From Caryophanales bacterium UBA6768 (lineage in GTDB: Bacteria; Bacillota; Bacilli; Bacillales_D; Amphibacillaceae), in contig DKGO01000023.1 of assembly GCA_002453315.1 (NCBI GenBank), forward strand, positions 1 through 32,399: 32,399 bases of DNA. Reading direction: 5' to 3'. The translations under genes were made by a program, and so were the position numbers. The notes beneath the pieces were generated by a model, which saw nothing but the letters and a program-made list of their open reading frames with translations, was not told where the DNA came from and did not search any database. Position 1 is the stretch's first letter. The number at the start of each line of letters is the position of its first letter. Shown here piece by piece: positions 1-21,098 of this stretch.

Positions 1-303
1 CTAGCACACTTGAAATCACAGTTTTTGCATTTTTCAGAGGGGCTAGACGCCCTAGCACACTTGAAATCACAGTTTTTGCATTTTTCAGAGGAGCTAGACA
101 CTCTAGCACACTTGAAATCACAGTTTTTGCATTTTTCAGAGGAGCTAGACGCTCTAGCACACTTGAAATCACAACTTTTTCATTTTTCAGAGGAGCTAGA
201 CACTCTAGCGCATTTGAAATCACGACTTTTGCATTTTTCAAAGGAGCTAGACGCTCTAGCACACTTGAAATCACAGTTTTTGCATTTTTCAGAGGAGCTA
301 GTT
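1..303. repeat. Six-copy 51-bp tandem repeat
   Basis: Six consecutive 51-bp units start at 1, 52, 103, 154, 205 and 256. Each begins CTAGCACACTTGAAATCAC, runs through TTTTTGCATTTTTCAGAG and closes with GAGCTAGACGCT. Units differ at only a few positions. The GCTAG...CTAGC pair across each junction could form a 5-bp stem with a 5-nt loop. Because 51 is a multiple of 3, a frame stays open through the array (about 17 residues per unit) and runs into padR, but this looks like a by-product. The array begins at the window edge and probably continues leftward. It ends a few bases before the padR -35 box. Confidence 0.93.
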
Positions 304-8502: not shown

Positions 8503-8703
8503 TCATACATCCTCCTCAAAAATAAAAATGTCCTCAATCCGTTCTTGAAAAATTCGAGCAATCCGTACAGCAATTAATAATGAAGGAATAAATTCCTCCC
8601 GTTCTATAAGACTAATTGTCTGACGGGAAACTTTTGCCTTTTTGGCTAATTGTGTTTGATTTAAGCCATCCCTAGCCCGAAGTTCCTTTATACGTGTCTT
8701 CAT
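8503..8703 (-). CDS. Small Xre/Cro-type HTH regulator
   Basis: This 66-residue protein is almost only a helix-turn-helix: KELRARDGLNQTQLAKKAKV then SRQTISLIEREEFIPSLLIAVRIARIF, like the YozG/Xre group encoded beside membrane proteins of unknown function. GGGGAGG precedes the ATG. It likely represses its own two-gene operon through the inverted and direct repeats upstream. No ligand domain is present. Confidence 0.9.
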   Translation of the reverse strand: MKTRIKELRARDGLNQTQLAKKAKVSRQTISLIEREEFIPSLLIAVRIARIFQERIEDIFIFEEDV

Positions 8704-8726: not shown

Positions 8727-8790
8727 ATTGTACGTTATAGTTGTCACTTTGACAAATAAACTAGTCACTTTTAAAAATAAATTAGTCAAT
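8727..8790 (-). promoter_or_regulatory. Xre operon promoter with 21-bp iterated operators
   Basis: On the minus strand TTGTCA (8750-8755) and TACAAT (8727-8732) are 17 bp apart, a good sigma-A promoter. TTGTCACTTTGACAA (8741-8755) is a perfect 6-3-6 dyad covering the -35. On the plus strand GTCAC(T) recurs at 8743, 8764 and (GTCAA) 8785, exactly 21 bp apart, and the first two 21-bp units agree at 18 positions. These look like phased repressor sites. Confidence 0.65.
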
Positions 8791-8880: not shown

Positions 8881-8940
8881 TCCAATTGAAGAAGGTCCCA
8901 AGGAATTTTATGAATGATATTTTATGTTCGGGCCAGTAAC

Positions 8941-9300
8941 GTTTATGTGTGGTGGATTCAGTTTATGTGCGTCCCTGCCATGTTTATGTGCGATAGATTC
9001 AGTTTATGTGCGCTCCTACCATGTTTATGTGCGATAGATTCAGTTTATGTGCGCCCCTGCCATGCTTATGTGCGGTTGATTCAGTTTATGTGCGGGCCTG
9101 CCATGTTTATGTGCGGTTGATTCAGTTTATGTGCGAGCCTGCCATGTTTATGTGCGATAGATTCAGTTTATGTGTGCCCCCGCCATGTTTATGTGCGGTT
9201 GATTCAGTTTATGTGCGCCCCTGCAATGTTTATGTGCGGTCAGGTAACGTTTATGTGCGATAGATTCAGTTTATGTGTGCCCCCGCCATGTTTATGTGCG
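8941..9300 (+). repeat. 18-copy GTTTATGTGCG array with 20/21-bp period
   Basis: The 11-mer GTTTATGTGYG occurs 18 times, at 8941, 8961, 8982, 9002, 9023, 9043, 9064 (one T to C), 9084, 9105, 9125, 9146, 9166, 9187, 9207, 9228, 9249, 9269 and 9290. Spacing alternates 20 and 21 bp with a single break, because two spacer types alternate (ATAGATTCA or GTTGATTCA, and NNCCTGCCAT), giving a 41-bp higher-order unit. The array ends 17 bp from the stop of the VanZ-like gene. The same core in reverse occurs at 20010-20143. Confidence 0.95.
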
Positions 9301-9316: not shown

Positions 9317-9877
9317 CTAAGAAGATTTTCTAGAACGTGAATTAGTCGGATAATAAAACATCCGACTCGTCAAAGAATAAATAAGTTTAAATAAAAGGAC
9401 ACCAATTATTGCACCAAATGTATTAAATACAAGGTCATCGACTGTACCAAATCGGATTATCGTAAATGTCGCTTGGATCAATTCAATACATAATGAAGCC
9501 ATCAGCCCAACAATGCCAACGATTATCACGGAGTTAAATTTTTTATTTAATAATGGTAGTAAAAATCCAAGAGGAACGAATAGCATAATATTGCCGACAG
9601 AATAAAGTAATTGATAAGCCAAATAACCTTCGGCCATATGAAGCAAGTTATAAAATAAATTTGTGTCAAAAGAAAATTCACGGACAGTGAATGGGAATTG
9701 AAAATGAAATGGTCGCATTGTCAAATAGCCGACAGACATGGCGTAAATAAAAAACATTTGCCACGGCCAATCCTTATACATTGGTCGTTTTTTGCTTCTA
9801 TATTTCCGGTAAGTTCGCCAGCCCCAACATAGGGTAATTATGATGAGTAAAAACCATCCGTTTAATTGAACATACAT
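9317..9877 (-). CDS. VanZ-like family membrane protein
   Basis: This 186-residue protein has about five membrane helices. The VanZ-family core is visible: YLTMRPFHF near residue 55, the stretch YSVGNIMLFVPLGFLLPLL near 95-115, then SLCIELIQ and the acidic GTVDDLVFNTFGAIIG. VanZ proteins give low-level teicoplanin resistance when linked to van clusters, but most chromosomal members have no proven role. No van genes are nearby. I start at 9877, eight bases after AAAGG; a GTG at 9886 lies on the ribosome site. It may share a transcript with the gene at 10014, but a terminator stands between them. Confidence 0.85.
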   Translation of the reverse strand: MYVQLNGWFLLIIITLCWGWRTYRKYRSKKRPMYKDWPWQMFFIYAMSVGYLTMRPFHFQFPFTVREFSFDTNLFYNLLHMAEGYLAYQLLYSVGNIMLFVPLGFLLPLLNKKFNSVIIVGIVGLMASLCIELIQATFTIIRFGTVDDLVFNTFGAIIGVLLFKLIYSLTSRMFYYPTNSRSRKSS

Positions 9878-9895
9878 GTTTAACACCTTTTTCTA

Positions 9896-17954: not shown

Positions 17955-19016
17955 ATGAGCTGGCAAGGATTAATTAACCATTATGCTTCTTTTTTACCTG
18001 TTACAGAGCAAACCCCAAAACTATCATTGTATGAAGGGAATACGCCGTTAATTTATTTTTCACATTTATCGGAAGAATTAGGTATTGAATTGTACGGAAA
18101 ATATGAAGGATTAAACCCGACAGGGTCTTTTAAAGATCGTGGGATGGTCATGGCCGTCGCAAAAGCAAAGGAAGCTGGTAGTAAATCTGTCATTTGTGCT
18201 TCTACTGGAAATACGTCAGCATCCGCTGCTGCCTATGCTGCTCAAGCAGGAATGAAGGCCATTGTCGTTATCCCTGAAGGGAAAGTAGCACTTGGAAAAT
18301 TGGCACAAGCAGTCATGTATGGAGCTGACATCGTCCAAATTGCGGGGAATTTTGATGATGCTTTGAAAATGGTGCAAAATATTAGTGAAACACATCCCGT
18401 TACATTGGTCAATTCAGTAAATCCGCATCGACTTGAAGGACAAAAAACGGCTGCTTTTGAGGTGATTGAACAGCTCGATGGAGATGCACCCGATATTTTA
18501 GCCATTCCAGTGGGAAATGCCGGGAATATCAGTGCTTACTGGAAAGGTTTTAAAGAATATCAGGAACGAAATGGAACCCGCCTACCTAGAATTTATGGAT
18601 TTGAAGCCGAAGGTTCGGCGGCGATTACGAAAGGGGAAGCTATTGCATCTCCTGAAACGATAGCTACTGCCATTCGAATAGGAAATCCAGCTAGCTGGGA
18701 TTTGGCAACAGCAGCCCGTGATGAATCTGGTGGTATCATCACTTCTGTTACTGATGAGGAAATAATCACTGCATTTAAGGAGCTTCCGAGAAAAGAAGGA
18801 GTCTTCGCAGAGCCTGGTTCTTGTGCATCGATTGCTGGTGTTTTTCAACAAGTAAAATCAGGAGTCATTAAACCTGGAACAAAAGTCGTTGCCGTGTTAA
18901 CAGGTAATGGATTGAAGGATCCACAGACAGCCATCGACAAAATTGATATCGTCCCAGTCTCATTACCTAATGATGAAGCAGCCGTCACCGATTACATTAA
19001 AAAGGCAGTGGAATAA
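17955..19016 (+). CDS. thrC: Threonine synthase
   Basis: ThrC (353 residues) is the PLP enzyme that turns O-phosphohomoserine into threonine. The cofactor lysine is Lys60 in [26 protein letters not shown] and [16 protein letters not shown] bind the phosphate group. I start at the ATG at 17955, one base after the hom stop, because AGGAG (17941-17945) lies nine bases upstream; an ATG three codons earlier overlaps hom and is less well placed. Short fold II type, as in other Bacilli. Second gene of the threonine operon. Confidence 0.96.
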
Positions 19017-19020
19017 TCCT

Positions 19021-19920
19021 ATGTTGACAATAACTGTTCCTGCAAGTTCAGCTAACGTCGGGCCAGGATTTGATTCAGTTGGTATGGCCGTCGGCCGTTA
19101 TTTAACATTACGTGTGACAAAATCTAACGCATGGGAATTTTCCCATGAATTATCCGACATTCCAGATGTTGAACATTATAAAAATCACTTTATATATAAA
19201 GTCGCTAAACAAGTCGCTGACTGGCATAAGGTTACGATGTTCCCATGCCATGTCAATGTACAGAGCGACATTCCTTTAGCACGTGGATTAGGAAGTAGTG
19301 CCTCAGCAATCATTGCTGGAATTGAACTAGCCAATCAAATTTGTCAATTGCAATTATCAGATGAGACAAAATTTTCTTATGCTGTTACCATCGAAGGCCA
19401 CCCTGATAATGTGACACCTTGTTTATTCGGTGGATTTATCGTAACAGTGAAGACAAGAGATGAAACTTTTTATAAAAAGTTACCGTCAGTTGAACTCGAC
19501 ACTATCGTCTACATTCCACCATTTGAATTAAAAACTTCCGATGCTAGAGAGGTTTTGCCGAAGGTTTTTCCGATCGATGAGGCTACGTCAGCCAGTGCAA
19601 TTAGTAATATGGTATTAGTCGCATTGGTAACAGGTGATTATGAACTTGCCGGTAAAATGATGGAAAAGGATATGTTCCATGAACCATACCGAGCAACCCT
19701 TATTCCACAATATGAAGCCATTCGAATGAAAGCAACTAAACTCGGGGCATACGGTACTGTTATTAGTGGCGCGGGACCAACGATGATTTCTTTTGTACCA
19801 AAAGGAAAAGGACAAACAATTGCTGAAAATATGGTGAATGTAATGCCCGAACTTGATGCTTATGAAGTAGTTTCACTTGCATTGGATGAGCAAGGATTGC
19901 AGGTTAACGGGAAATTGTAA
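19021..19920 (+). CDS. thrB: Homoserine kinase
   Basis: ThrB (299 residues) phosphorylates homoserine for ThrC. It is a GHMP kinase: the ATP-binding motif IPLARGLGSSASAI lies at 84-97, the N-terminal motif reads VPASSANVGPGFDSVG, and GAYGTVISGAGPTMISF forms the C-terminal motif 3. The ATG at 19021 follows the thrC stop by 4 bp; its ribosome site (AGTGGA) is weak, so translation is probably coupled to thrC. A frame extending back to 18943 would overlap thrC and is not supported. Confidence 0.96.
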   Translation: MLTITVPASSANVGPGFDSVGMAVGRYLTLRVTKSNAWEFSHELSDIPDVEHYKNHFIYKVAKQVADWHKVTMFPCHVNVQSDIPLARGLGSSASAIIAGIELANQICQLQLSDETKFSYAVTIEGHPDNVTPCLFGGFIVTVKTRDETFYKKLPSVELDTIVYIPPFELKTSDAREVLPKVFPIDEATSASAISNMVLVALVTGDYELAGKMMEKDMFHEPYRATLIPQYEAIRMKATKLGAYGTVISGAGPTMISFVPKGKGQTIAENMVNVMPELDAYEVVSLALDEQGLQVNGKL

Positions 19921-20009: not shown

Positions 20010-20143
20010 CGCTCATAAACGTTGATTTACCGCTCATAAATCGGAATAAGCACTCATAAACGTTGTACCACCGCTCTTAAACTGAAATGAACGCACTTAA
20101 ACTTGATTTACCGCACATAAATCGTGATTCAACGCACATAAAC
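20010..20143 (-). repeat. Seven-copy CGCWCATAAAC array, reverse of the 8941 array
   Basis: Cores start at 20010 (CGCTCATAAAC), 20031, 20051, 20072 (CGCTCTTAAAC), 20092 (CGCACTTAAAC), 20112 and 20133 (CGCACATAAAC). Spacings are 21, 20, 21, 20, 20 and 21 bp. The last core is the exact reverse complement of GTTTATGTGCG. This copy set is more diverged. It lies between the convergent ends of thrB and the ABC ATPase gene. Confidence 0.88.
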
Positions 20144-20303: not shown

Positions 20304-21098
20304 TTATCCTAGCACTGTTTGATCTGTCACCAATTGTTTTCCCCTGATTTTTTGGAACTCTTCTAATAAGTCGGTTACCGTTAAGTTTTGTTTTTCTTTT
20401 CCTGAAACGTCAAAAATAATTTGACCAGCATCCATCATAATTAATCGGTCACCTAAATCAAGTGCCTGTTGCATATTGTGGGTCACCATCATCGTTGTTA
20501 AGTTAAACTTTTTTACAATATCTTCTGTAATGCCGATAATTAATTTAGCTCTAGCTGGGTCGAGAGCTGCTGTATGCTCATCCAACAACAATATATTCGG
20601 TTCAGTAAAGGTGGCCATTAGTAAGGATAAGGCTTGTCGTTCTCCTCCTGACAATAAACCTACCTTGGCATTTAGCCGGTGCTCTAATCCAAGATTTAAT
20701 GTTTTTAAATAATCCTGAAAAATTTCCCGACGCTGCTTTGTGACTCCCGGACGAATCCGGCGTTTTTTATTTCGGGAATATGCGATAGCTAAATTTTCTT
20801 CAATGGTCATTGCGGGAGCAGTTCCCGCCATTGGGTCCTGAAAAACACGTCCAATATATTGTGATCGTTTAAATTCCGGTAAATGAACGACCTGGTCATC
20901 GTTAATAAAAATATCGCCGACATCAGGGGTTAAAGCCCCAGAAATAACATTCATTAACGTCGATTTCCCAGCACCATTGCCACCAATTATTGTAATAAAT
21001 TCCCCTTCGTTCATTTCCAGATGAATATCTTTCAGGGCCTGTTTCTCGTCTAATGTGCCTTCATTAAATGTAATGGAGATATGTTTTAACTTAAGCAT
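20304..21098 (-). CDS. ABC transporter ATP-binding protein (TrpZ-type)
   Basis: This ATPase of 264 residues belongs to the uptake family often called TrpXYZ. Walker A is GGNGAGKST (39-47), the signature LSGGERQ (149-155), and Walker B ILLLDEH (169-175), with His at the position after the catalytic Glu174 and then TAALDP. The H-loop is MVTHNMQQA. Histidine in place of the more usual proline after DE is typical of this family. It overlaps the permease gene by 8 bp, so the two are coupled. It energises import with the permease and lipoprotein encoded upstream. Confidence 0.9.
   Translation of the reverse strand: MLKLKHISITFNEGTLDEKQALKDIHLEMNEGEFITIIGGNGAGKSTLMNVISGALTPDVGDIFINDDQVVHLPEFKRSQYIGRVFQDPMAGTAPAMTIEENLAIAYSRNKKRRIRPGVTKQRREIFQDYLKTLNLGLEHRLNAKVGLLSGGERQALSLLMATFTEPNILLLDEHTAALDPARAKLIIGITEDIVKKFNLTTMMVTHNMQQALDLGDRLIMMDAGQIIFDVSGKEKQNLTVTDLLEEFQKIRGKQLVTDQTVLG

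Follow-up and report, generated by a model that had tools for sequence, protein, structure and literature searches.

The window analysed here, a stretch of 32,399 bases with 36% G+C, contains two members of a class of intergenic chromosomal elements, arrays in which a core of about 10 bp is repeated in tandem at 20–21 bp between largely free spacers. We favour the reading that these arrays are two-turn-phased platforms for a putative sequence-specific DNA-binding protein at the borders of transcription units, although we hold it at somewhat less than an even chance. Its basis was observed, namely the core, the phase, their recurrence, other cores with the same step, the location of first-core arrays and their change by whole units; the protein, the contact between its copies and the function at borders would be what the reading adds to these. 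The helical step is common while the word varies by lineage, which would suggest that either an undescribed machinery for binding DNA or some physical rule of its wrapping is at work at gene ends. Literature searches aimed at the element agreed with the original prediction that no named element has this form.

Two phased arrays of one core in the window

The arrays and the genes around them are as follows; the core of array 1 is called the first core below.

8503 to 8703, minus strand: small helix-turn-helix gene (Pfam PF01381), on the opposite side of array 1 from the VanZ-like gene
8920 to 8930, plus strand: degenerate core (TTTTATGTTCG) with two mismatches, in phase, 21 bp before the first core of array 1
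8941 to 9300, plus strand: array 1, 18 cores GTTTATGTGCG, steps of 20 and 21 bp, two alternating spacers
9317 to 9886, minus strand: VanZ-like gene (Pfam PF04892), stop 16 bp from array 1
18943 to 19920, plus strand: GHMP-kinase gene, ends before array 2
20010 to 20143, minus strand: array 2, 7 cores GTTTATGWGCG (two exact and five with one mismatch), steps of 20 and 21 bp
20304 to 21098, minus strand: ABC-transporter ATPase gene, ends after array 2, convergent with the GHMP-kinase gene

The original prediction of 18 cores at steps of 20 or 21 bp, averaging about 20.5 bp, was borne out. All 17 core-to-core steps in array 1 were 20 or 21 bp with a mean of 20.53; the core was exact in 14 of the 18 copies, and the remaining four (at 8941, 9064, 9166 and 9269) had a single mismatch. 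Spacers of 9 nt ending in GATTCA alternate with spacers of 10 nt like CCCCTGCCAT. Because the two spacers alternate, the true unit of array 1 is 41 bp with two cores, and TRF reported a 41-bp unit in 7.8 copies. The predicted alternation thus holds for array 1, apart from a single break at 9239–9248 (GTCAGGTAAC), but not for the whole class, being found in the window and in genome G701. The degenerate copy at 8920–8930 may be a worn edge of array 1, although a lone match with two mismatches can arise by chance. Across the window, 38 core matches with up to two mismatches were found against 14.49 ± 3.78 expected, and none of 100 dinucleotide shuffles reached 38. Array 2, which lies on the opposite strand to array 1 and had been overlooked by the earlier reading of the sequence, has spacers unrelated to those of array 1, while core and step agree.

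The genes flanking array 1 share one direction and those flanking array 2 are convergent; a hairpin-plus-T site was found beside neither array. The GHMP-kinase gene is presumably homoserine kinase-like, given its place after thrC-like and hom-like genes. Steps of 20 and 20.5 bp break the reading frame, and the small ORFs across array 1 look like chance, so a coding repeat was rejected. An RNA element was ruled against by the absence of any Rfam match at gathering score in the window. A mobile element was likewise rejected, since array 1 had no blastn match to plasmids and phages and the two-core pattern had none in viral contigs. Iterons of plasmid replication origins are also direct repeats near two turns apart, tied to one origin and its initiator. 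In contrast, array 1 is without a phage or plasmid match, and no replication initiator gene was seen beside the arrays among the ORFs of the window (seven by Pfam, the others by eye).

Array 1 starts about 240 bp upstream of the start of the helix-turn-helix gene and could in principle be its operator. We consider this very improbable, because array 2 and most arrays mapped elsewhere face gene ends and because the array does not accompany relatives of the VanZ-like gene on its other side. Such relatives were absent from all 261 genomes of the family of G002, a Sporosarcina genome (E 1e-20), and present in 12 of 159 genomes of the family of G608 (1e-15, 41–53% identical), where all 12 loci were without a two-turn array. 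Separately, a 21-bp unit (GTCACTTTGAAAAATAAACTA, 2.2 copies) at 8743–8788 lies directly upstream of the helix-turn-helix gene and may be its operator.

Spread of the first core across genomes

When every genome contig was scanned for pairs of exact cores separated by 8–11 bp, 35 stretches emerged: 14 from Sporosarcina, 6 from Fictibacillus, 2 each from Ureibacillus and Lysinibacillus, 6 from a Bacteroidetes MAG and 5 others. Exact two-turn pairs occurred in 37 of 261 genomes of the family of G002 and in 3 of 159 genomes of the window's probable family, that of G608, which was chosen through the nearest relative of the phytoene synthase (69% identity) among 398 sampled Bacilli genomes. Within the latter family, G701 had 30 exact pairs and, as in the window, a mixture of 20- and 21-bp steps with two spacer types. 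Against a lone array without conserved phase, which the original prediction had named as its adverse case, stand array 2 and the arrays in these 37 and 3 genomes.

Most genomes of both families were without exact pairs of the first core. These counts undercount arrays: BLAST with one array gave at least 57 matches in G011, at least 72 in G006 and at least 34 in G007, array pieces and a few gene matches included. The 17 arrays listed for G002 on two contigs are dispersed in intergenic places, and the same core stands beside unrelated spacers in many arrays of a single genome. No single copy of the exact first core (TTTATGAGCG) was found in 499 kb of G002 between arrays, where about one was expected by chance, and the first core is therefore a word of arrays. 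This sets it apart from the DNA uptake sequences of Neisseria and Pasteurellaceae, which share with the arrays a word of about 10 bp, lineage dialects and frequent places at gene ends, but which are numerous scattered single or paired sites.

The stretches from the Bacteroidetes MAG (L004, L010, L020, L027, L031 and L033) were mostly of period 19 and had a different unit, combining GTTTATGTGCG with a GCGCTTTGCGC-like palindrome at contig ends; they are probably unrelated. In a Caldilineaceae MAG (L006, 3137–3941), GTTTATGAGC-like units of 10 bp were repeated in groups of 3 to 6, spaced almost regularly.

A common step with differing words

As a control the pattern was read backwards, and it matched in just 6 of the 261 genomes (103 pairs) and in 1 of the 159 (1 pair). 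The matches in the six genomes turned out to be a second core, GCGAGTATTT, with a 21-bp step. We therefore searched for any repeated word at any period (a 9-base word with one mismatch allowed, at least 4 repeats, period 12 to 60). In an unselected sample of 796 kb, taken at round coordinates from 8 related genomes, six arrays were found in four of the genomes, five at 20–21 bp and one at 13. The cores of these five centred on TGAGCGAAT, CGCGGGTAA, TTTAGTGCG and, twice in one genome, GCAAGCAAA. With five of six unselected arrays at 20–21 bp and cores that differ between genomes, the step is common and the word is a dialect. Samples from 20 other Bacilli genomes, 400 kb in total, yielded no array, a weak zero, since the density seen in the related genomes predicts about three.

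Another 1.17 Mb, selected for other reasons, contained 24 further arrays whose cores differed from those already known; 17 of these had periods of 20–21 bp, five of 51–52, one of 15 and one of 45. The 499 kb of G002, a sample biased against the first core because it was taken between known first-core arrays, contained eight arrays, five at 52 bp and one each at 20.6, 12 and 36, the last inside an ORF call; three of the eight (L100, L101) overlap with the set of 24. Three block-shuffled copies of this sample contained none. Periods of 20–21 and 51–52 bp, that is two and five turns, dominate, and several cores can coexist in one genome. This coexistence counts against the platform reading, as several unrelated cores per genome would need several proteins.

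Two further repeats of this longer period were noted. At the start of the window (1–301, truncated by the window start) a 51-bp unit of five helical turns is present in 5.9 copies before a PadR-type gene; in related genomes, periods of 51–52 bp rank second in frequency. A 52-bp family in G002 (L101 2574–2946, L277 5674–5993, L284 2001–2217) has a different, partly inverted design with GGTCACTA-like and TAGTGACC-like halves.

Placement relative to genes and the replication origin

With simple ORF calls, 85 arrays from 13 genomes were mapped; 46 of them were counted for placement, namely first-core arrays outside ORF calls with both neighbours known, from G002, G003, G004, G701 and G011. The count omits G233 (9, near-duplicates of G011), G244 (2), six second-core genomes (24), three G003 arrays inside an ORF call and one G701 array at a contig end. 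Convergent gaps held 16 of the 46 arrays, compared with 59 of 371 array-free background gaps from all 13 sets (p 0.004), and divergent gaps held 4 of 46 compared with 100 of 371 (p 0.006). In tandem gaps, CGCWCATAAA read in the gene sense in 20 arrays and opposite in 6 (p 0.009; two of the 20 share one gap). The preference is not strict, as two further G002 arrays (L002, L022) run opposite. A hairpin-plus-T site separated the gene end from its array in 27 of 58 instances, compared with 10 of 58 on the wrong strand, 9 of 58 beyond the array and none of 290 shuffles; in those 27 the array thus lies beyond a terminator.

Strands relative to dnaA, counted by hand, were mixed in G233, G185 and G158, which argues against a polar replication signal, and uniform in G244 and G048 (about four places each). 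Seven of nine G233 arrays lay within 490 kb of dnaA, all five G185 sites lay within about 410 kb (both by hand), and on one G011 contig, among the matches listed, 12 of 29 places fell in the 343 kb nearest dnaA (p 0.004). G158 showed no trend to clustering near the origin. As the comparison was post hoc, we regard origin-near clustering as weak.

Conservation, G/C rhythm and curvature of the unit

Among distinct units of twelve array sets, information was 1.66–1.96 bits per position in the core and 0.47–1.40 in the spacers, a contrast that is partly built in within genomes because the units were found by their core. Unit positions 12–14 were A or T in 88–100% of distinct spacers in G002, G003, G004 and G011 (0 of 2000 permutations each), less markedly so in G701 (38 of 2000), and without such a preference in array 1 of the window (1862 of 2000). 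A 10-bp G/C rhythm was strengthened by the spacers of 40 out of 44 arrays in the same four genomes, in 7 of 14 tested second-core arrays, in 8 of 22 with other cores and in none of six in G701; in the window they did so in array 2 (p 0.005) and not in array 1 (p 0.935). Curvature was predicted by a wedge model for arrays of at least 100 bp and at least five copies. All 16 G002 arrays, all 3 G003 arrays and 1 of 4 G701 arrays of sufficient length lay above the random 95% level; neither window array did, and repeating the prediction at exact coordinates gave the same result. Intrinsic curvature is therefore rejected as a common cause by the window and by most of G701: every array has the phased core, but not every one has extra bending.

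These features bear on a second reading, in which the arrays would be landing pads for DNA gyrase or another DNA-wrapping protein. Phased A/T and G/C blocks would ease bending, and behind genes the arrays would absorb positive supercoils, a role that BIME-2 may have in E. coli. On this view the exact word would be of little importance, and the many cores would be explained. The gyrase of E. coli is reported to favour G/C content that varies in phase every 10 bp, as well as regions behind transcribed units (PMC6379681), and some of the arrays fit this. In favour also stand the A/T positions and the G/C rhythm in G002, G003, G004 and G011, and the curvature in G002 and G003. We nevertheless think this reading unlikely, given the lack of phasing in array 1, the uncurved window arrays, the sparse G/C rhythm in G701 and with other cores, and a core that is kept letter by letter, beyond the needs of bending. 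The BIME/REP elements of E. coli are described as many dispersed intergenic elements near gene ends, some of which bind gyrase (PMC6379681, PMC2817692). The arrays too are dispersed over many intergenic places near gene ends; however, REPs are palindromic and alternate in orientation, whereas the arrays are direct repeats with one strand sense each. The core is not palindromic by its letters, and all cores of an array read on one strand.

A phased protein platform as the favoured reading

The specific-protein reading was ranked first, at below one half in our estimate, because conservation of the word extends to its single letters and array 1 lacks a bending signal. The core would be the site of a putative sequence-specific DNA-binding protein, whose copies would line up along a single face of the helix in mutual contact. 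The contacting copies would build a nucleoprotein stretch at transcription-unit borders, and this stretch might act as a roadblock, an insulator or a folding point. A common step, free spacers and a kept word are what a self-contacting protein along one DNA face would select. A wider version, in which a multi-dialect Bacillales system of several proteins, each with its own 10-bp word, would form two-turn (and five-turn) filaments where transcription units meet and thereby partition the chromosome into domains, seems to us unlikely.

A precedent is the ParMRC partition system of pSK41, in which ParR binds 20-bp repeats of parC (PMC9426499). Such centromeres resemble the arrays in that a protein recognises direct repeats of about 20 bp and assembles a higher-order complex on them, and in that the repeats vary by family like dialects; the arrays are likewise clusters of direct repeats within the range of about 10–20 bp. 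In contrast, parC is usually one plasmid cluster upstream of parM, whereas G002 and G011 each carry many chromosomal arrays, and the genes beside the window arrays (VanZ-like, helix-turn-helix, GHMP kinase, ABC ATPase) include no parM or parR. ParR on its repeats is thus a precedent for the geometry and not for the place.

Evolution of the arrays

Comparison of 12 array pairs, each drawn from related genomes, showed changes at 28 of 1155 core sites and at 49 of 1169 spacer sites (Fisher p 0.02), a modest difference from array alignments that are ambiguous. The Fictibacillus pair showed no difference between core and spacer (11 of 140 vs 11 of 130), and in three of four second-core pairs from G047 and G048 the array diverged more than its flanks, in alignments that are ambiguous there too. 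Core and phase as the conserved features are supported, in that both recur with unrelated spacers in array 2, across other genomes and beyond a single family, but the core is only modestly better kept than the spacer.

Copy number changed by whole units between close genomes (13 vs 10, 17 vs 29 and 14 vs 21). All nine arrays compared between G011 and G233 were shared in position, so gain or loss of arrays between these two was rejected; one of them had 6 copies in G011 and 2 in G233, with flanks identical at 371 of 371 aligned bases, and another had 6 vs 7. Decay of copy number in sister strains, which the original prediction had named as adverse to it, is thus seen in part: some relatives differ by whole units, but the arrays keep their position and phase. 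In G006, what seems to be the same gap holds an array in reversed orientation with other spacers, and another place has no first-core array. Spacers are nearly uniform in some arrays. This similarity and the growth by whole units resemble ordinary tandem duplication and weigh against the platform reading.

They would instead suit a constrained satellite, in which repeats grown by slippage would be tolerated where they break no promoter or gene, with a mutational or physical step and no host function; the place away from divergent genes is also what tolerance predicts. This account, too, we judge unlikely. Slippage alone gives no preferred step, yet 20–21 and 51–52 bp dominate, and it would have to accommodate one core with unrelated spacers across many arrays of one genome. 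Copies per array are moreover narrow in G003 (5 in 10 of 12), which also speaks for the platform, and in G004 (5 in 4 of 6); they are narrow in G011 too (7 in 5 of 9) and broad in G002 (5–14).

Finally, a dispersed repeat of about 120 bp, 95–99% identical, was observed at several places in G233, G006 and G007 (L182, 5345–5438 and beyond), where it adjoins a two-turn array.
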